Assembly: GCF_026016465.1 (NCBI RefSeq)
Contig: NZ_CP100390.1
Location: 3,020,501-3,084,500 of the forward strand
Direction: 5' to 3'
Length of the DNA: 64,000 nucleotides
Source of the DNA: Alkalimarinus alittae
GTDB taxonomy: Bacteria > Pseudomonadota > Gammaproteobacteria > Pseudomonadales > Oleiphilaceae
Positions 44,775 through 58,533 of the stretch are shown one piece after another. The stretch's first letter is position 1. Each line of letters begins with the position of its first letter. Position numbers and translations under genes: made by a program. The notes beneath the pieces are model-generated. The model made no database searches, had not been told where the DNA came from, and saw only the letters and a list, made by a program, of their open reading frames with translations.

Positions 44775-46184
44775 TTAATCCGCCGATGGGATCTTAATAT
44801 TTACCTCTTCGCCTAACAACGTTCTGTATTTTGCTTTGAGTGCGCTTTTGGCGTCGTTGTCACCGTGTATGATTCTGATTTCTTGTGGCTTTTTCTTCAT
44901 GCGTTTTACGAAGTCGGTTAGGTTTTTTTGGTCGGCGTGAGCTGAATAGCCTGAGATGGTGTGTATCTGAGCGTTTATCGGGTACTTTTCGCCTTCAATC
45001 ATCACGTATCCCCCTTTTGATCCGTATTGTTGGATATCGTGCCCGGGTGTTCCCTTTGCTTGATAGCCTACAAATAAAACATCGGTTCGTTGATCTGCTA
45101 ATAGTGCTTTTAGATAGTTAAGAATTCTTCCGCCTGCGCACATTCCACTCGCTGCAATGACAATGGTGGGTCTTGCGGTTTTTTTGAGGTATTCGACGGT
45201 TTTGATATGGGTATCGTGATCATCGATGGTGGTTAGTTGATCAAATGAGAGCGGATGCCTGCCTGAAACGACTCTTTTACGCGCTTCTTTATCCCAATAA
45301 GGTTCTAACGTTCGATAAACTTCGGTGAATTTTGCGGCGAGGGGCGAGTCTATGACAATTTCAATATCATCCCATGCTAAACGCTCTGTTAGATATTTTT
45401 TACGATGTTCATCTCGGCTATTTTGGTAGATCAGGCTTTCTAGTTCATAAAGCAACTCTTGCGTTCGACCGATGCTAAACGCGGGGATCAGTATGACGCC
45501 TCGGTCTTTTACTGCCTTTTCTATAACCGCCTGCAACTGTTGTTTACGCTCTTTTCGGTTAGTATGCTCTTTATCGCCATAGGTGCTTTCAATAACTAAA
45601 ACATCACAGCCATAAGGCGCTTTGGGTGCCGTTAACAATGGTGAGTATGGCGCCCCTAGATCGCCTGAAAAGATCACTTTTTTAGCCTTTTGGGTCGTCT
45701 TAACCCTGCATACAACATACGCAGATCCTAAAATATGACCTGCAGGTTTGAGCTTTACATCTAAGCCAGAAATGACGGAGTGCCATTCGCCGAAAGGTAA
45801 TGCGATTATTTTTTGCTTTATCTCTTTTATAAATCGAGTTATTAGTTGTTTATTGCGGGTAAACCCTACTTTAAGGGCGTCTTCTAACACTAAGGGTAAT
45901 AACGCTGCAGTCGGCTCTGAGCAGATGATGGGGCCGTTGAAACCCGCAGCTAGTAGATAGGGAATGCGACCTAAGTGATCGATGTGTACATGGGTGACGA
46001 CAAGCGCTTTTATGTGTTCTATTGGGAAGTCAATTTCGAGGCTGTTTTCAGTAGCGCCCTTACCTGAGGTTTCGGCACCTTGGAATAAACCGCAATCAAT
46101 TAAGATACCGGCGTTGTCGTTTAGTTTCAGTTCATGACAGGAGCCTGTTACGCCATTCACCGCTCCGTGGTGTAGTATTTCCAT
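44775..46184 (-). CDS. MBL-fold/beta-CASP RNA exonuclease-like protein
   Basis: The 469-residue protein has a metallo-beta-lactamase core with zinc ligands THVHIDHLGRIPYL, SGDLGAPYSPLL and VIESTYGDKEH, a beta-CASP insert and the C-terminal motifs VIAASGMCAGGRILNYL and ISGYSAHADQKNL. This set defines the CPSF73/Ysh1-like RNA nucleases and their bacterial relatives. A second member of about 30-40 percent apparent similarity lies at 46984-48339. Role: RNA processing or decay, substrate unknown. Confidence 0.92.
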   Translation of the reverse strand: MEILHHGAVNGVTGSCHELKLNDNAGILIDCGLFQGAETSGKGATENSLEIDFPIEHIKALVVTHVHIDHLGRIPYLLAAGFNGPIICSEPTAALLPLVLEDALKVGFTRNKQLITRFIKEIKQKIIALPFGEWHSVISGLDVKLKPAGHILGSAYVVCRVKTTQKAKKVIFSGDLGAPYSPLLTAPKAPYGCDVLVIESTYGDKEHTNRKERKQQLQAVIEKAVKDRGVILIPAFSIGRTQELLYELESLIYQNSRDEHRKKYLTERLAWDDIEIVIDSPLAAKFTEVYRTLEPYWDKEARKRVVSGRHPLSFDQLTTIDDHDTHIKTVEYLKKTARPTIVIAASGMCAGGRILNYLKALLADQRTDVLFVGYQAKGTPGHDIQQYGSKGGYVMIEGEKYPINAQIHTISGYSAHADQKNLTDFVKRMKKKPQEIRIIHGDNDAKSALKAKYRTLLGEEVNIKIPSAD

Positions 46185-46282
46185 GATAATTCCTGTTAAT
46201 TGGTTGTTATTTCAAGCTCAATGCGACTCATTAGAATGAAGAGTTGGCATTTTAACACTGAAAAATTAGTCCCCCCTACCCT

Positions 46283-46323
46283 TGTGCGATATCTCTCACA
46301 ATAGAAATGGGTAATGTCCTACA
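46283..46323 (+). promoter_or_regulatory. GacA-like upstream boxes of sRNA 1
   Basis: TGTGCGATATCTCTCACA (46283-46300) is the reverse-strand form of a TGT-A/G-AG-N6-C-N-N-ACA type site. A weaker second element, ending TCCTACA, is at 46317-46323. The 18-bp box starts 61 bases before the -10 TATAAT at 46344-46349. The same arrangement occurs at 51229 before sRNA 2. Confidence 0.65.
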
Positions 46324-46343
46324 TCCATAAATTATATCTTAAG

Positions 46344-46349
46344 TATAAT
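46344..46349 (+). promoter_or_regulatory. -10 element (TATAAT) of sRNA 1
   Basis: A perfect TATAAT lies before the start of the GGA-rich hairpin region, with start of transcription expected near 46356. No good -35 lies 17 bases upstream, as expected of an activator-dependent promoter. Confidence 0.6.
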
Positions 46350-46355
46350 GCGCCG

Positions 46356-46480
46356 CTGCAAGGATGCAAAAACTGCCCGCAAGGGTGTGGTACATGGAAG
46401 TTAAACACTGAATGGATTCAGTGAGGCGTTAAGCCAAGGATGGAGCATAGGGATTGTGCGCCGACTTAACGCTTGTTTCA
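46356..46480 (+). ncRNA. Candidate CsrB/RsmZ-type sRNA 1 (CsrA/RsmA-binding)
   Basis: The non-coding stretch of about 125 bases has GGA motifs shown in hairpin loops: TGCA-AGGA-TGCA (46357-46368), CACTGAA-TGGA-TTCAGTG (46406-46423) and GCATA-GGGAT-TGTGC (46445-46459). Further GGA copies lie at 46396, 46438 and 46442. An outer stem pairs GCGTTAAG (46426-46433) with CTTAACGC (46465-46472), followed by a T-rich stretch. This is the layout of CsrB/RsmY/RsmZ RNAs, which titrate the translational regulator CsrA/RsmA. The 3' end is less certain because the T tract is interrupted. Confidence 0.72.
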
Positions 46481-46585
46481 CTTCTGTTTTATCCCCCTCG
46501 GTCAAGCATTCTGCCTATTGGCCTCCGTACTGAATAATCACTTCGAACGTGGCTCATCTTTTAATCGCTTTAAATGGAATTTCAA

Positions 46586-46906
46586 ATGCGAATCAAAAAT
46601 TTTTTATCATTACTTGCTCTAGTTGTTACTTTTAGCCTTTCTTTTTTACCGGCCCAAAATGCTTTTGCCGCTAAAGTCGAAGCGACCCATGCGGTATCTG
46701 TCGAAACAGGGAAGATTAATATTAACAGCGCCGATGCACACACATTGGCATCATCGATTAAAGGCATCGGCTTAAAGAAAGCTCAAGCTATTGTAGACTT
46801 TAGAGAAAGCAACGGCCCATTCGTTAACATTCAGGATCTAGTGAGTGTTAAAGGTATTGGCGAGAAGACTGTTGCTAAAAATGCGTCTCTGCTGACGGTT
46901 AAGTAA
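46586..46906 (+). CDS. ComEA-like helix-hairpin-helix protein
   Basis: The 106-residue exported protein has a signal peptide (1-28, ending NAFA) and a ComEA-type helix-hairpin-helix domain (INSADAHTLASSIKGIGLKKAQAIVDFR, LVSVKGIGEKTVAKNASLLTV). Such proteins bind DNA in the periplasm during uptake or belong to the YbaV/ComEA family of unclear role. The start is the ATG at 46586, with GGAATTTC upstream giving a Shine-Dalgarno; an ATG at 46574 is also in frame. It stands alone between two nuclease genes read the other way, downstream of candidate sRNA 1. Confidence 0.88.
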   Translation: MRIKNFLSLLALVVTFSLSFLPAQNAFAAKVEATHAVSVETGKININSADAHTLASSIKGIGLKKAQAIVDFRESNGPFVNIQDLVSVKGIGEKTVAKNASLLTVK

Positions 46907-46983
46907 GGTACAAGAATTATGACTTGGCGGTTGGTTATTGTGGAGACCGACTGCCAAGTTATTTTCGCTTTTTAGGCTATTAG

Positions 46984-48339
46984 TTAAAGATTGAATTCTT
47001 CGCCATAATCAGGCACTTCTACTTTCCAACCGAACTTTTCTTCTAGTTTTAATCGCATGCTATCTGATGCGACGGGCTCTCCATGAGTGACGAACACTTG
47101 CTTGGGGTTGATGTTAGATTGATCTAGCCAATCTAGAATTTCTACATAGTCTCCGTGAGCTGATAGACTATCTATTTGGCTGACTTCTGCGCGTACGGGG
47201 TGGTAGGCTCCGTGTATTTTTACCTGTTCTGCCCCGTTTACCATTGCATCTCCTCTTGTTCCGGGAGCTTGAAAACCAACAAACACAACGCTATTTCTAT
47301 GATTGGGTAGTAGCGCTTTGAGGTGATGTAGCACCCACCCACCACTAGCCATTCCGCTAGCTGAGATAATAATAGATGGGTATTTTCGATTGTTCAGTTC
47401 TATAGATTCTTCTGGAGTTCTTACAAAGTGCGTGTCTTTGTCGATTTTTTCACATTCTTCTGCGGTTAGGCGGTGTTCTTTATGGTGGTTACAATAGATT
47501 TCAGTGGCAGTAATTGCCATGGGGCTGTTTAAATAAACTGGCACATCGGGGATTTCATTGCGCTCTTTTAGTAACTGAATAATATAAAGTATCGTTTGCG
47601 CGCGACCTACTGCAAATGAGGGTAATAATACGATCCCTCCTCTTTCCATTGTTTTGTTAATAATGTTTTTAAAGAACTCAAACGGATCTGTTTCGTCATG
47701 CCTTCGATTGCCATAGGTAGACTCAACCACAAGGTAGTCTGTCTCGCTCAATGGCTCAGGCGGACGCATCACTAAATCCTCTGTTCGTCCTACATCACCA
47801 CTAAAGGTAATCGTTTTTCCGCCGGCACTGATCTGCACAGCCGCTGACCCCAATATATGTCCGACGGGTGTAAACGTTGCGGTTATCTGATTAGCGACGT
47901 CTAGGGGCTTATGATATTGAACGGGTTTGAATAGTTTTAGCGACTCAATGGCATCTTTTTCGGTATACAGTGGCAACGCGGGACTATGACGAGAAAATTT
48001 CTTCTTATTTGCATAGCGTGCGTCTTCTTCTTGCAAATAGCCCGAGTCGGGCAATAAGATTTTGCACAAGTCGTAAGTCCCCTTAGTGCAATAGACAGGC
48101 CCTTTAAAGCCATTTTTTCTCAGCGCGGGAACATAACCACTGTGGTCAATGTGAGCATGAGTTAATATCACCGCATTGATTGTTTTGGGGTCGATAGGAA
48201 AGCCCCCTCTATTTCGTAATCGTAGTTTTTTAACCCCTTGATATAACCCGCAGTCTACTAATACCCGCTGATTTTCATGAGTAATTAAATACTTTGACCC
48301 CGTAACCGTGCCAGCACCACCCAAAAACTTAATATTCAT
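46984..48339 (-). CDS. MBL-fold/beta-CASP RNA exonuclease-like protein (second copy)
   Basis: The 451-residue protein has motifs FLGGAGTVTGSKYLI, THAHIDHSGYVPAL, PVGHILGSAAV, SGDVGRTEDLV, VESTYGNRRHDE, IIISASGMASGGWVLHHL and SLSAHGDYVEILDWL. Together they give the MBL plus beta-CASP nuclease architecture. It differs from the first copy in length and in the C-terminal Asp-Tyr-Gly tail, so it is an old paralogue rather than a recent duplicate. It is divergent from the phosphorylase gene, with the promoters of both in about 145 bases. Confidence 0.92.
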   Translation of the reverse strand: MNIKFLGGAGTVTGSKYLITHENQRVLVDCGLYQGVKKLRLRNRGGFPIDPKTINAVILTHAHIDHSGYVPALRKNGFKGPVYCTKGTYDLCKILLPDSGYLQEEDARYANKKKFSRHSPALPLYTEKDAIESLKLFKPVQYHKPLDVANQITATFTPVGHILGSAAVQISAGGKTITFSGDVGRTEDLVMRPPEPLSETDYLVVESTYGNRRHDETDPFEFFKNIINKTMERGGIVLLPSFAVGRAQTILYIIQLLKERNEIPDVPVYLNSPMAITATEIYCNHHKEHRLTAEECEKIDKDTHFVRTPEESIELNNRKYPSIIISASGMASGGWVLHHLKALLPNHRNSVVFVGFQAPGTRGDAMVNGAEQVKIHGAYHPVRAEVSQIDSLSAHGDYVEILDWLDQSNINPKQVFVTHGEPVASDSMRLKLEEKFGWKVEVPDYGEEFNL

Positions 48340-48486
48340 CCGCTTGCTTCCTTGTCACTTGTCACTTTCATCTTAGTATAAAGTGACATTTAAGGCAGAT
48401 GGATATGTTGACCTGACGCAAGACAGTTTTCATTAATTGGCATAGTATTAATTTGACTATTATGATTAACATTTTGAATGGAATTT

Positions 48487-50016
48487 ATGAGCAACCCAGA
48501 AGAGTCGCAACACGTAAACTTTCTTAATCTACGCAGAATGGGTATCGACACTCATCAGGAGCCGGTCATTTACATGCGGCAGGACTGTTATGTTTGCCGG
48601 GCAGAAGGATTTGAAGCGCACTCACGCATTAATGTTTGCACGGGGTCTCATAGCATTATTGCCACCGTTAATATGGTGACAACGGATATCCTCTCCCATC
48701 AAGAAGTGGGATTATCAGAGTCGGCTTGGCGGCTACTCGAGGCGTCAGAAGGTGAAAAAGCAACCTTTTCTCATGCAAAACCTGCCGAGTCAATGACTTA
48801 TGTACGCGGTAAAATCTACGGCACGCCCCTTTCTCCTCGAAGCGCGACGGATATTATTAACGATATCGCCAATGGCAATTATTCAGATATTCAACTCGCC
48901 TCATTTGTTACATCTTGCGCAGGCAACCGGCTCAACACCAATGAAATAATTAGCCTTACAAAAGCGATGGTCGCTTGCGGCAGCCAGTTAGACTGGGGGC
49001 GCGAGCAGGTAATGGATAAGCATTGCGTGGGCGGCTTACCCGGCAATCGAACAACCCCCATCGTTGTGGCTATTGTTGCAGCATCAGGCCTGATTATGCC
49101 TAAGACCTCATCACGCGCGATCACCTCCCCCGCGGGTACCGCAGACACCATGGAAACCTTAACACCGGTTAATCTTAGTTTAGAGACCATGCGATCAGTT
49201 GTTGAAAAAGAAGGCGGCTGTATTGCATGGGGCGGCTCAGTCAGTTTGAGCCCTGCCGATGATATTTTGATACGTATTGAAAAAGCATTAGACTTAGATA
49301 GCGAAGGCCAACTCGTCGCGTCTGTCATATCAAAAAAGATTGCCGCCGGCTCTACAGACGTATTGATTGACATCCCCATTGGGGCAACCGCCAAAGTAAG
49401 AAGCATGAACTATGGCCGAAAACTCGCCAAGCAATTGGTAAAAACCGGTGAAGCATTAGGCATAAGGGTCAACATTCTTTTTTCGGATGGATCACAACCT
49501 GTCGGTCATGGTATTGGCCCTGCACTCGAGGCGAGAGATATCATTCATGTGTTGAAAAACCATCACCACGGCCCGCAAGATTTAAGAGATAGAGCCACAA
49601 CCATCGCAGGCGAGATTTTAGAAATGGGCCATGCAGCCCCCAAAGGTGAAGGAAAGCGATTAGCAGAGCATAAAATAACCTCTGGTGAGGCTTGGACTAA
49701 ATTCCAAGCAATCTGTGAAGCTCAAGGCGGTTTAAAAGAGCCCCCGAGAGCAGCGCATACACATTGCATAAGGGCCGGGCGCGCAGGCATTATTTGTTAT
49801 ATTAATAACCGCGTTATTGCAAAACTAGCGAAACTGGCAGGCGCCCCCGCAGCACCGGCAGCAGGGCTAGACTTTCACGTAAAACTGGGCGATAAGGTAG
49901 ATCCTGAAACCCCTTTATTCACCATCCACTCAGACGCACCCGGCGAACTACAATACGCCATTAACTTTTTAGAAGACCACCCCAACGCCGTCAGCATAGA
50001 GGAGGAATGCATTTGA
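48487..50016 (+). CDS. AMP phosphorylase/thymidine phosphorylase-like protein (type 2)
   Basis: The product has about 509 residues. An N-terminal domain of about 85 residues leads into the phosphorylase core: DKHCVGGLPGNRTTPIVVAI (phosphate and nucleoside site), KTSSRAITSPAGTADTMETLTPV and SPADDILIRIEKALDLD. The C-terminal domain includes GRAGIICYINN. The archaeal enzyme of this family splits AMP (and other NMPs) to ribose 1,5-bisphosphate and base, and bacterial relatives are annotated as putative thymidine phosphorylase; sequence alone does not separate the two. The ATG at 48487 has TGGAATTT upstream. The PRPP synthetase-like gene overlaps its end. Confidence 0.9.
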   Translation: MSNPEESQHVNFLNLRRMGIDTHQEPVIYMRQDCYVCRAEGFEAHSRINVCTGSHSIIATVNMVTTDILSHQEVGLSESAWRLLEASEGEKATFSHAKPAESMTYVRGKIYGTPLSPRSATDIINDIANGNYSDIQLASFVTSCAGNRLNTNEIISLTKAMVACGSQLDWGREQVMDKHCVGGLPGNRTTPIVVAIVAASGLIMPKTSSRAITSPAGTADTMETLTPVNLSLETMRSVVEKEGGCIAWGGSVSLSPADDILIRIEKALDLDSEGQLVASVISKKIAAGSTDVLIDIPIGATAKVRSMNYGRKLAKQLVKTGEALGIRVNILFSDGSQPVGHGIGPALEARDIIHVLKNHHHGPQDLRDRATTIAGEILEMGHAAPKGEGKRLAEHKITSGEAWTKFQAICEAQGGLKEPPRAAHTHCIRAGRAGIICYINNRVIAKLAKLAGAPAAPAAGLDFHVKLGDKVDPETPLFTIHSDAPGELQYAINFLEDHPNAVSIEEECI

Positions 50017-50903
50017 AACCGATACTATTTACCCTGTTTAGTGATGAAAGCTCGCTTTGTGCAGAACTATTGAATAGCGACCACTTTGAATTGGGCGAAG
50101 CAGATATTCGTCGCTTCCCTGACGGTGAAAGTTACGTAAGAGTAACTAGCCAAATTAAAGACCGTAACATTATCATTTTGGCAAACCTTCACCATCCCGA
50201 TGATAAACTCTTACCAGTGTTATTTCTTTGTCAGTCATTAAGAGATCAGTCAGCCAAACACATCACGCTCATCGCGCCTTACTTACCCTACATGCGACAA
50301 GATAAGCGGTTTCATAGTGGAGAGTGCATCACCTCTGCCGTGTTTGCTAACATATTAAGCACAGCTATAGACGAGCTAGTCACCATAGACCCACATCTGC
50401 ATCGTTACCATGCACTTTCAGAAATATATAGCACTAAAACGCAGACACTAAAAGCAGACAATACGATTGCCAACTGGATAAAGCGCAACATCCAAAACCC
50501 GCTCATCATCGGCCCAGATAGCGAAAGTGAACAATGGGCGGCAGCAACGGCAGAGATGATTGACTGCCCTCACCTTGTGCTCACAAAAGAACGGTTTGGC
50601 GACCGAGACGTCAGCATTTCATACCCCAATGCAGCAACGTTAGCAGACCGCACCCCAGTATTAGTGGACGATATTATTTCTACCGGAAGAACCATGATAG
50701 AAACCGCAGGCGTACTAACATCAGAAGGCTTTAAAGCCCCTGTTTGTATAGGTGTACATGCTGTATTTTCAGAAAATGATTATCAAGCATTGGCCAACAG
50801 CGATGTTGAGAAGGTTGTTACCTGCAATACCATTCAGCATCACAGCAATGGAATCGACTTATCTGAGGTCATCATTAATGCATTAAGGTCTCAACGTGTT
50901 TAA
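50013..50903 (+). CDS. Ribose-phosphate pyrophosphokinase-like protein (PRPP synthetase family)
   Basis: The product has about 296 residues: RFPDGESYVRV, IAPYLPYMRQDKRFHSGE (ATP loop), TIDPHLHRY, IIGPDSESEQWA and the PRPP loop VLVDDIISTGRTMIETA. It lacks the fuller C-terminus of housekeeping Prs (about 315 residues) and is closest in layout to archaeal-type or class III enzymes. The genome presumably has its own standard prs elsewhere, so this is probably specialised. A TTG at 50013 overlaps the phosphorylase stop (TTGA) with GGAGG 7 bases upstream; the ATG at 50007 is too near that Shine-Dalgarno. Translational coupling to the phosphorylase implies a shared pathway. Confidence 0.88.
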   Translation: MKPILFTLFSDESSLCAELLNSDHFELGEADIRRFPDGESYVRVTSQIKDRNIIILANLHHPDDKLLPVLFLCQSLRDQSAKHITLIAPYLPYMRQDKRFHSGECITSAVFANILSTAIDELVTIDPHLHRYHALSEIYSTKTQTLKADNTIANWIKRNIQNPLIIGPDSESEQWAAATAEMIDCPHLVLTKERFGDRDVSISYPNAATLADRTPVLVDDIISTGRTMIETAGVLTSEGFKAPVCIGVHAVFSENDYQALANSDVEKVVTCNTIQHHSNGIDLSEVIINALRSQRV

Positions 50904-50915
50904 GCCGAGACCTTA
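50884..50915 (+). terminator. Hairpin at the end of the PRPP synthetase-like gene
   Basis: TAAGGTCTC (50884-50892) and GAGACCTTA (50907-50915) are perfect complements across 14 bases and span the stop codon. No T tract follows, so it may only stabilise the mRNA. Confidence 0.3.
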
Positions 50916-50942
50916 GATGCCTAGCTGACTTGGCGACATTCA

Positions 50943-51113
50943 CTAAGCCACCTCTTGCTGAGTCTCACTTCTAAACACCGCAATTGGATCATCATACAGG
51001 TTGTGCGGATCCTGATCGTGAGCCACTGACCAAATCAAGTAATCAATAAAAGCCTGCTCTCTCGCTTGGTTTTCTTGAATTGATTCTGCTTGATTGTTTA
51101 TTTGCCTATCCAT
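50943..51113 (-). CDS. Small protein of 56 residues, unknown
   Basis: The frame reads MDRQINNQAESIQENQAREQ and ends ETQQEVA. It is acidic, with a helical Gln/Glu-rich start and a SVAHDQDPHNLYDDPIAVF segment. GGGGTGAT lies about 6 bases before the ATG. It is convergent with the PRPP synthetase gene and diverges from sRNA 2 and its boxes. It is too short for most ORF calling and I recognise no family; composition and the Shine-Dalgarno favour a real gene. Confidence 0.55.
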   Translation of the reverse strand: MDRQINNQAESIQENQAREQAFIDYLIWSVAHDQDPHNLYDDPIAVFRSETQQEVA

Positions 51114-51228
51114 AAATCACCCCATAATTTGTTGTTATATATAGTGTGGATTAAATCCGTCAAAAATCCGTAAGTAAATGTGCTTATGGGCGTTATAGCA
51201 AAGGGTGTGCCATTCATGTTAAGTACGC

Positions 51229-51268
51229 TGTAAGAGATATCGCACAACAATTTAGGCGATATCCTACA
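51229..51268 (+). promoter_or_regulatory. GacA-like upstream boxes of sRNA 2
   Basis: TGTAAGAGATATCGCACA (51229-51246) fits the TGTAAG-N6-CTTACA type UvrY/GacA site at 10 of 12 defined positions. A second element, TTTAGGCGATATCCTACA (51251-51268), follows. The first box starts exactly 61 bases before the TAATAT -10 at 51290-51295, the same distance as in sRNA 1. Confidence 0.68.
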
Positions 51269-51301
51269 GACACCACCCAACCACTTCCGTAATATACACA
51301 T

Positions 51302-51452
51302 TGTCAGGACGACATGCGGTTTTCTTTAACGGAAAACAGTAGTTAACGTATGGATGCGGACAGGGAAGTAAACATGGATGGCCGGTTACCTAAGGAATGG
51401 TAAGGGAAGCATCGAACTGACGAGGCGCTGCAAGGATTGCAGCGCCTTTTTT
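51302..51452 (+). ncRNA. Candidate CsrB/RsmZ-type sRNA 2 with terminator
   Basis: The non-coding RNA of about 150 bases has GGA motifs in loops: TGTC-AGGAC-GACA (51302-51314), TTACC-TAAGGAAT-GGTAA (51386-51403) and the terminator stem AGGCGCTGCAA-GGA-TTGCAGCGCCT (51423-51447), which itself carries GGA in its loop and is followed by T6. At least six more GGA copies lie between. The TAATAT -10 at 51290 puts the start near 51302. Structure, upstream boxes and perfect terminator make a CsrA/RsmA-titrating RNA the best reading. An antisense open frame here is spurious. Confidence 0.8.
51423..51452 (+). terminator. Rho-independent terminator of sRNA 2
   Basis: A perfect 11-bp stem (51423-51433 with 51437-51447) closes a GGA loop and is followed by T residues to 51452. 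Confidence 0.93.
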
Positions 51453-51687
51453 GTGTTTGTTAATTACCACCAAACACCTATTATTTAATACAAACAAAAC
51501 ATCGCCGTCTTGAGCGATTGTACGCCTTACATTTTTCACTCACGCAAATAAAGTCAGTTCCCTCTGCGGAGTTGTGTGATAAGCAAGGAATATTTCACCT
51601 ATTGAATCAACAATGTATTTTGGTCTGTTCTTTTATTCTATGCTATTGTCTTATCAGTAAATAATAACTTTAGTAAAGGTAATCCCT

Positions 51688-52638
51688 TTGAAGAAATTTG
51701 CCTTAATTGGTGCTGCTGGATATGTCGCATCAAGACATATGAGAGCCATTAAAGAAACCAACAATGAACTTACAGCTGCATTGGATATATCTGACTCTGT
51801 TGGAGTGATTGACTCTTACTTTCCAAACGCTCGATTTTTCACCGAGTTTGAACGTTTTGATCGCCATATAGATAAAGTTAGAAGAAAGTCTCAAGATGAC
51901 GCATTAGACTTTATTTCAATTTGTTCACCTAATTACCTTCATGATGCACACGCTCGATTTGCTTTTCGTTCTGGTGCCGACGCAATATGCGAAAAACCAT
52001 TAGTCCTCAACCCTTGGAATTTAGATGGTCTTCAGGAAATTGAACAAGCAACTGGCAGAAAAGTATTTAACATTCTACAACTCAGACTACATCCATCTTT
52101 AAAAAAAATAAAAAAACAAATTATTCAAGAAAATAAAAAATCAAAGTATGAAGTAGACCTTACTTACATAACCTCTAGAGGGCGCTGGTATATGATGTCA
52201 TGGAAGGGTGTCGAATCTAAATCTGGAGGTATAGCCACAAACATAGGCGTCCATTTTTTTGATATGCTCTCTTGGCTATTCGGAGACCTTCAACAAAATG
52301 AAGTTCATTTATATACACCAAAAAAATCCAGCGGCTACCTAGAATATGAAAAAGCAAGAGTCCGCTGGTTCTTATCAATTGATGAGAATGACCTTCCTGA
52401 CCAATGTAAAAAAGAAGGCCAACGGACCTACCGTTCGATTACTATTGATGAAAATGAAATTGAATTCTCTGGCGGGTTTACTGACCTTCATACAATGAGC
52501 TACCAACATATCCTCGATGGTCAAGGGTTTGGTATCAATGATGCTAGAACAGCCATCGAGACGGTCCATAATATAAGAAATAGCAAACTTAGAGAAAACC
52601 CAGCCATAAAACACCCTTTTGCAAATAAGAACTCATGA
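51688..52638 (+). CDS. wbpB: UDP-GlcNAc(A) 3-dehydrogenase WbpB/WlbA-like (Gfo/Idh/MocA)
   Basis: The 316-residue Gfo/Idh/MocA oxidoreductase has [20 protein letters not shown] at the start, [29 protein letters not shown] (Lys of the active site) and [21 protein letters not shown]. In the ManNAc3NAcA pathway it oxidises C3 of UDP-GlcNAc uronic acid. The start is a TTG at 51688 with AAAGG upstream at normal distance; no ATG precedes it in frame. It overlaps wbpD by 4 bases and opens the third polysaccharide cluster, whose AT content is higher than that of its left neighbours. Confidence 0.92.
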
Positions 52639-57810: not shown

Positions 57811-58533
57811 ATGAGTGGAACAGTCATAAACCTTATTAATCGAGTCGCCGGATATATAAAACCCGTTTTTCGGGGAAACCATACAGGATGGTATGCTTCT
57901 GCATCTCTCGGAAAGCACATTGACCCGCTTGCCCGTTTTTTTGAGTACTTGTTAGGGGTATCCATCCCACGACAAAAAATCAACCGTATAAAACCGCAAG
58001 TCATATCTGATCTAAGGGGTGACATCATCGAAATTGGGGGGTTCGACAACCACTTTCGGTCTCGCTATAACTCAGGTGAATTTCGCAACCTCGATGTAGC
58101 CCCTGGAAAATACGTTGATATTGTCGCAAATGCTGAATGCATACCCGAAGTCAAGTCCAATTCACTCGGTGGTATTATCTGCATATCCGTTATAGAGCAT
58201 ACAACATCCCCCCACAAAATAATCGAAGAAGCTCACAGGTGCTTGAAACCCGGTGGGGTGTTGCTGCTATCTAGCCCCTGGATTTTTGAAACACATATGG
58301 AGCCCAATGATTTTTTAAGATTTTCAAAACACCAGCTAGAAAATTGGTGCGACCAATTCGAAACTATTGAGGTTGATTATACTAATTCATATGTAGGTGT
58401 TATCGCACACTTTCTCCAACGTAATGTTGTATTACGATTTATTTTAGGATCATTTTTTTGTTTAGCTGACCTCACCATGCCAAACAACTCAAAATGGGCA
58501 ACCCAAATAACTCTAATATTAAAGAAACGATAG
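57811..58533 (+). CDS. Class I SAM-dependent methyltransferase-like protein
   Basis: The 240-residue protein has a degenerate SAM loop (IIEIGGFDNHF), FRNLDVAPGKYVDIV and CISVIEHTTSPHKIIEEAHRCLKPGG (post-I and motif III-like). N-terminal residues 1-70 are basic and include a hydrophobic patch. The glycine-rich loop is poorer than usual, so activity is not certain. It belongs to the operon with two more methyltransferase genes. Confidence 0.82.
   Translation: MSGTVINLINRVAGYIKPVFRGNHTGWYASASLGKHIDPLARFFEYLLGVSIPRQKINRIKPQVISDLRGDIIEIGGFDNHFRSRYNSGEFRNLDVAPGKYVDIVANAECIPEVKSNSLGGIICISVIEHTTSPHKIIEEAHRCLKPGGVLLLSSPWIFETHMEPNDFLRFSKHQLENWCDQFETIEVDYTNSYVGVIAHFLQRNVVLRFILGSFFCLADLTMPNNSKWATQITLILKKR

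Follow-up and report, generated by a model that had tools for sequence, protein, structure and literature searches.

Two predicted Csr/Rsm-type RNA promoters of Alkalimarinus alittae share a GacA/UvrY-like box at a fixed distance from the -10 element

Do two GGA-rich RNAs encoded in one stretch of the Alkalimarinus alittae chromosome answer to the same response regulator? The stretch, called the window below, comprises 64,000 nucleotides (nt) of contig NZ_CP100390.1 (positions 3,020,501 to 3,084,500). The question is raised by an 18-base-pair (bp) near-palindrome, TGTRAGAGATATCGCACA, which is located at 46283-46300 on the minus strand and at 51229-51246 on the plus strand; the two copies are alike in 17 of 18 positions. 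They precede two predicted RNAs, RNA1 and RNA2, both transcribed from the plus strand. Re-reading of the window bears out what a first-pass annotation had reported about these positions and about an identical distance of 61 bp between the start of the box and the -10 element (TATAAT at 46344, TAATAT at 51290). Regulation of both RNAs by one response regulator, as proposed at that time, is the reading best supported by the sequence: the box resembles a mapped UvrY site, genes for GacA, a BarA/GacS-type kinase and CsrA are present, and both RNAs are enriched in ANGGA. We consider it highly probable that RNA1 and RNA2 belong to a CsrA-titrating set of Csr/Rsm RNAs and that phosphorylated GacA activates both from a two-site promoter of fixed spacing. 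The elements, in window coordinates, are as follows.

46283..46300, plus strand: GacA/UvrY-type box 1 of RNA1, TGTGCGATATCTCTCACA as transcribed, present at the same place in 5/5 genomes of the genus, this one included
46306..46323, plus strand: apparent degenerate second box of RNA1, AATGGGTAATGTCCTACA, at +23 from box 1; CCTACA is kept in 5/5 orthologues
46344..46349, plus strand: -10 of RNA1, TATAAT, starting 61 bp beyond the start of box 1; a good -35 is lacking
46356..46472, plus strand: RNA1, GGA-rich, with ANGGA six times; start predicted from the -10, end set at the end of the 3' stem; a free small RNA (sRNA) or a comEA-like leader
46574..46906, plus strand: comEA-like gene for a helix-hairpin-helix protein (Pfam HHH_3; comEA is our own label), some 100 bp downstream of RNA1
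51229..51246, plus strand: GacA/UvrY-type box 1 of RNA2, TGTAAGAGATATCGCACA
51251..51268, plus strand: apparent degenerate second box of RNA2, TTTAGGCGATATCCTACA, at +22 from box 1, centre about -42.5
51290..51295, plus strand: -10 of RNA2, TAATAT, starting 61 bp beyond the start of box 1; a good -35 is lacking
51302..51454, plus strand: RNA2, Rsm/Csr-type, about 150 nt, 9 GGA (7 ANGGA); predicted start
51422..51454, plus strand: intrinsic terminator of RNA2, a stem of 12 pairs that has AAGGA at its loop and is followed by a T run

Both boxes represent the TGTAAG-N6-CTTACA type, an 18-bp palindrome upstream of rsm/csr-type RNAs; the half-sites of one side are imperfect (CGCACA). Counted by eye, box 1 of RNA1 agrees in 15 and box 1 of RNA2 in 14 of 18 positions with TGTGAGAGATCTCTTACA, the UvrY site of Escherichia coli csrB which was mapped by chromatin immunoprecipitation with exonuclease (ChIP-exo) and by footprinting (PMC4682653). 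At up to three mismatches the 18-mer has three matches in the window versus 0.12 expected from 100 shuffles. The third match, at 58392, has three mismatches, is located within an open frame and was taken as chance. The opposite strands of the two box 1 copies had been considered a noteworthy feature. This we reject: of the five RNA1 orthologues one (G004) has the stronger half-site reversed. Orientation thus seems to be without meaning, as expected of a near-palindrome bound by a dimer.

The entire genome, a single contig of 4,254,924 bases (C1), was searched for the 18-mer. At up to two mismatches four distinct chromosomal sites emerge; besides the two window copies these are C1:514853 and C1:3726059. 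All four adjoin GGA-rich RNA regions, with 6 to 9 GGA within 260 bp on one side. The concern that the motif would turn up at random in many places unrelated to sRNAs does not apply to such close matches. Up to three mismatches yield 15 distinct sites (16 matches) versus 4 matches for a reversed-pattern control. Of the 11 sites added at this level, one (C1:2750911) precedes a GGA-rich RNA and nine are within open frames of at least 80 amino acids (aa). A looser palindrome marks 12 distinct places, six of them common to the 18-mer search; because its reversed control has 7 matches versus 15, this pattern alone is not specific.

The first-pass annotation named two sRNAs which share the box. Both stand, the count does not: at least five such RNAs are predicted in the genome. 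RNA2, RNA3 (core at C1:514943) and RNA4 (core at C1:2750705) are paralogues of about 120-155 nt which have core and terminator in common. RNA1 is distinct from these and unlike them beyond the promoter. RNA5 (C1:3726242-3726772) is CsrB-like, about 530 nt long, and has 24 GGA and a distal box. ANGGA occurs 6, 7, 5, 7 and 19 times in RNA1 through RNA5. In 2000 dinucleotide shuffles these counts were never reached for RNA1, RNA2, RNA4 and RNA5, and were reached by 0.3% for RNA3. Plain GGA, compared with mononucleotide shuffles, gives a weaker result (p 0.008 for RNA2). The predicted hairpins of RNA1 place AGGA or TGGA in loops. Judged by these features, RNA1 and RNA2 probably titrate CsrA.

The regulators required for such a circuit are encoded. 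A GacA orthologue scores 308.7 bits against a curated cut-off of 280; the frame next after gacA encodes what we take, from its sequence, to be UvrC. A full-length kinase of BarA/GacS architecture comprises sCache, HAMP, HisKA, HATPase, REC and Hpt domains. Two genes are CsrA-like, with 90.9 and 48.5 bits (cut-off 27). The second protein, divergent and 66 aa long (L002:1474-1674), adjoins a frame which presumably encodes a transposase.

The distance of 61 bp is not peculiar to the window. Among 61 genomes of the family, 52 contain the box core TGTRNGANATNTCNYACA, with 141 sites in total; the reversed pattern has 2. We have read 93 of the 141 boxes, from 31 genomes (21/23 in G065, 4/6 in G027); the box of RNA4 does not fit this stricter pattern and is outside the 93. 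Regardless of RNAs, TANNAT is present at +61 in 43 of the 93 boxes, in 17 genomes. At the other offsets from 25 to 199 the mean is 0.58 (standard deviation (sd) 0.80), the next highest count being 4 at +62. Outside G065, 39 of 72 boxes are of the 61-type with at least four GGA downstream, and 24 have GGA-rich sequence further down; one is of the 61-type without a GGA-rich RNA and eight are neither. By the 61-type and the further-down criteria, respectively, control positions at the same loci score 0 and 82 of 982, and control positions in the window 2 and 1 of 4507. At the rate of these locus controls (82 of 982), chance may account for about 6 of the 24 boxes in the further-down group. Further, the counts are not independent because the promoters are related by descent.

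How might such a promoter operate? As a dimer, phosphorylated GacA would bind the palindrome, the centre of which is near -64.5. At 22-23 bp downstream, near -42.5, a weaker site would probably accommodate a second GacA dimer which replaces the missing -35 and touches RNA polymerase. The exact distance of 61 bp would keep box and -10 in constant phase on the DNA helix. Upon activation of the GacS/BarA-like kinase all promoters of the set would fire together, and the RNAs, presenting ANGGA in hairpin loops, would bind CsrA and free the CsrA targets. Both centres, -64.5 for box 1 and -42.5 for box 2, presuppose a start 7 nt after the -10; the second is where a class II activator would sit. Of all steps in this scheme, the two-dimer model is the one of which we are least sure. 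We propose, with slightly less than even credence, that GacA of this family is a combined class I/class II activator: tandem dimers at about -64.5 and -42.5, separated by some two turns of the helix and fixed at 61 bp from the -10, would replace the -35 at promoters of short Csr RNAs. In Pseudomonas the classical box was found to be necessary but not sufficient; tandem dimers of class I/class II character, if true, would explain this.

Several observations weigh against a GacA-driven Csr/Rsm set, in addition to those which are discussed below together with the second element and the neighbourhood of RNA1. The BarA/GacS-type kinase scores 884.2 bits, just below the curated BarA cut-off of 890. 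Plain GGA in RNA1 is marginal against mononucleotide shuffles (p 0.049). Rfam searches of window positions 45800-52000 indicated no Csr/Rsm family, either at gathering score or with E relaxed to 10, and 20 loci of this and related genomes gave no Csr/Rsm family, only a tRNA. The RsmY model (RF00195) has 0 matches in the A. alittae genome. With none of the RNAs at the Rfam gathering score, the set is not filed as RsmY, RsmZ, CsrB or CsrC. Finally, no GGA-rich RNA is alongside C1:3955605 (L016:1501-1567), an intergenic box pair at three mismatches with a -10, TATAGT, at 60. This pair sits after an rpoD-like gene and a tRNA.

The second element had been described as ending in TCCTACA 27-28 bp before the -10. 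It is there: TCCTACA starts 27 bp (RNA1) and 28 bp (RNA2) ahead of the -10, and the element, 22-23 bp further down than box 1, has the look of a second but degenerate GacA box. For a closer view 50 distinct 61-type promoters from 21 genomes, chosen for a -10 at 61 and a GGA-rich or model-matched RNA, were aligned; 46 model matches were read, and those without box and -10 at 61 are outside the 50. One of the 50 (from G065) is not a clear Csr RNA. Because the -10 at 61 was a selection criterion, the spacing is given beforehand in this collection. The conserved linker positions 27, 28, 30 and 31 are those of the box 1 GANAT core moved by 22 bp. GANAT is at +27 in 30 of 50 promoters, compared to a maximum of 4 at any offset in 2000 permutations. 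When the linkers are collapsed at 60% identity, 12 clusters remain, of which 5 have GANAT at +27 versus a permutation maximum of 3. A -35 search in the usual spacer range gave a best match of 2 or 3 of 6 positions in 48 of the 50 promoters and 4 of 6 in the other two.

Alternatively, activation may require the element as a DNA-bending linker or as the target of a factor other than GacA. Such roles were reportedly proposed by Humair in 2010 for an essential linker of Pseudomonas rsmY and rsmZ. It is a weak element, which in RNA1 and its orthologues is shifted 1 bp further downstream, and GANAT is not at +27 in 20 of the 50 promoters. Moreover, these promoters were pre-selected for the -10 at 61 and an RNA, and one linker cluster accounts for 27 of the 50. 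An RsmY search of the order gave matches in 34 of 145 genomes at E <= 0.001, four of them above the cut-off; in these four promoters, used for comparison, the -10 is about 61-63 from the box (by eye), and by eye a GANAT second box is not apparent. The coincidence of offsets 27, 28, 30 and 31 with the displaced GANAT core argues for a second box, as does the mean score of the box matrix, which is -8.9 at +22 versus a mean of -37.7 (sd 5.1) at offsets 40-89. In E. coli, UvrY crosslinks near the -35 of csrB and csrC in vivo, while purified UvrY footprints only the upstream site and not the region near the -35 (PMC4682653). These data cut both ways for a second dimer. We take another factor or a bending linker as a serious possibility which we are nevertheless inclined to doubt.

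A different objection pertains to RNA1, which could be the CsrA-binding 5' leader of a comEA-like mRNA under a GacA promoter, with RNA2 a true sRNA. The comEA-like gene follows about 100 bp downstream in 5/5 genomes of the genus and a conserved stretch is positioned directly before its start; a scan of the plus strand indicated no terminator for RNA1, and no T run after the 3' stem is conserved. Yet RNA1 is rich in ANGGA, its hairpins are kept in five genomes, and conservation is poor from the 3' stem up to the comEA start region. Covariation lends the hairpins weak support, 2 of 32 predicted pairs being changed on both sides over the five orthologues. A leader appears unlikely to us, and we continue to regard RNA1 as a putative member of the Csr/Rsm set, although comEA may be expressed from the RNA1 promoter as well.

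Could another regulator of the LuxR/NarL type bind the boxes in place of GacA? The genome has 66 response-regulator matches; a further response-regulator search brought nothing new. In one relative, G065 (L171-L191, L216), 23 core boxes are present, compared with 5-6 each for six members of its genus, and 13 of the 21 boxes read have neither a -10 at 61-62 nor a GGA-rich RNA, some being positioned shortly before open frames. This surplus is possibly an expanded direct GacA regulon or the work of another regulator. On the other hand, the boxes match the mapped UvrY site, and outside G065 the two criteria place GGA-rich sequence next to 63 of 72 boxes, of which chance would account for about 6. 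A different regulator at the boxes is, in our view, quite improbable. That the shared boxes are duplicated promoter copies which owe spacing and sequence to ancestry alone is very improbable: RNA2 through RNA4 are paralogues and a single linker cluster makes up 27 of the 50 promoters, but RNA1 is unlike RNA2 through RNA4 beyond the promoter, the same geometry prevails in 12 linker clusters which differ by more than 40% (61 being a selection criterion there), and the unselected test of spacing, with related boxes uncollapsed, is the count of 43 at +61 among 93 boxes.

How does this set compare with known Gac/Rsm and Csr systems? E. coli CsrB has 369 nt, and RNA1 and RNA2 are well under half this length. 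The boxes of RNA1 and RNA2 are proximal, while the csrB repeat is centred near -182. Common to the BarA/UvrY-controlled csrB and csrC and to the RNAs described here is the box sequence. Further, csrB has a TGTAGGAGA 5 bp downstream of the repeat (PMC4682653), which parallels the second box; the closest counterpart is in RNA5 (TGTAGGATATCTCCC at +22), the box of which is also distal. In Pseudomonas aeruginosa the GacA sites are at -75 in rsmY (proximal) and at -196 in rsmZ (distal) (PMC4950607). Thus, proximal and distal designs are both already known. The passage in question names UAS1 and UAS2 for GacA but not their positions, and therefore two GacA sites per promoter may already be described. 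Rsm RNAs occur in several copies per genome, up to seven in P. syringae (PMC7911923). With the GacS/GacA-controlled rsmX, rsmY and rsmZ of Pseudomonas the present RNAs share a short, GGA-rich format, an 18-bp palindromic upstream activating sequence (UAS), its proximal or distal placement and several copies; unlike these, the window RNAs have no Rfam match at gathering score, and the box core is GA-N-AT-N-TC. Shewanella has two copies, csrB1 and csrB2, of about 420 bp (PMC3171408), and Vibrio cholerae has three Csr RNAs. There, too, a box of the UvrY/GacA type is upstream of multi-GGA RNAs; the Shewanella RNAs are long, whereas here short and long types occur in one genome. In the literature sampled, with subscription journals mostly uncovered, we found nothing on Hahella together with CsrA and a small RNA, and the wording 'second GacA' does not occur in the 15 papers listed of 254; no priority is claimed.

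On the sequence evidence these would be Gac/Rsm (Csr) promoters of a known kind, with new members and a rigid geometry. The fixed spacing and the weak second box copy add a new detail to a known system. The Gac/Rsm circuit would thereby reach a genus in which one genome has at least five predicted Csr-type RNAs, short and long, all without an Rfam match here. That box and promoter are spaced to the single base was found without selecting for RNAs, and the second box is in the same register. Consequently, GacA activation without a -35 becomes a simple question of spacing and mutation. The box pattern also offers a practical route to Csr RNAs whose sequences have diverged.

RNA models were searched in 58 genomes, including that of A. 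alittae. The RNA2 core model has matches in 17, and all five genomes of the genus have at least three copies at E < 1e-20. Of the 58, only the five of the genus have RNA1, each time with a beta-CASP nuclease-like gene on one side and the comEA-like gene on the other. RNA5 has matches in 11, namely in all five genus members (in pieces in G002 and G004), in five genomes of other genera, where short matches to the 5' part occur, and in G037, where the match covers 23 bases and was taken as chance. The RNA5 promoter contains TGTGATAACCGTCACA (L006:1637-1652), centred about -41.5 from the inferred start, which resembles what we take to be the CRP/Vfr consensus. A similar sequence is discernible by eye in three of four relatives of the genus, with the right half only in G004.

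The RNA2 promoter is positioned after a phosphoribosyl-pyrophosphate-synthetase-like gene in 5/5 genomes of the genus. In G002 (L213, C1:714192-715680) its distance to the RNA2 core exceeds that in the other four by about 1.3 kilobases (kb), and the RNA gene seems to be interrupted by an insertion. Two RNase-like proteins of the beta-CASP/RMMBL metallo-beta-lactamase type (window 44775-46184 and 46984-48339) flank RNA1 and comEA; the second (46984-48339) is not in the 9-kb stretch of G004 that was read. Between RNA1 and RNA2 a phosphorylase is encoded; a contig scan with it led to 18 loci of other lineages, which were not used. In another genus (g5) the loci L104 (G032), L106 (G022) and L107 (G027) each contain two tandem 61-type promoters of GGA-rich RNAs, 317 bp apart.

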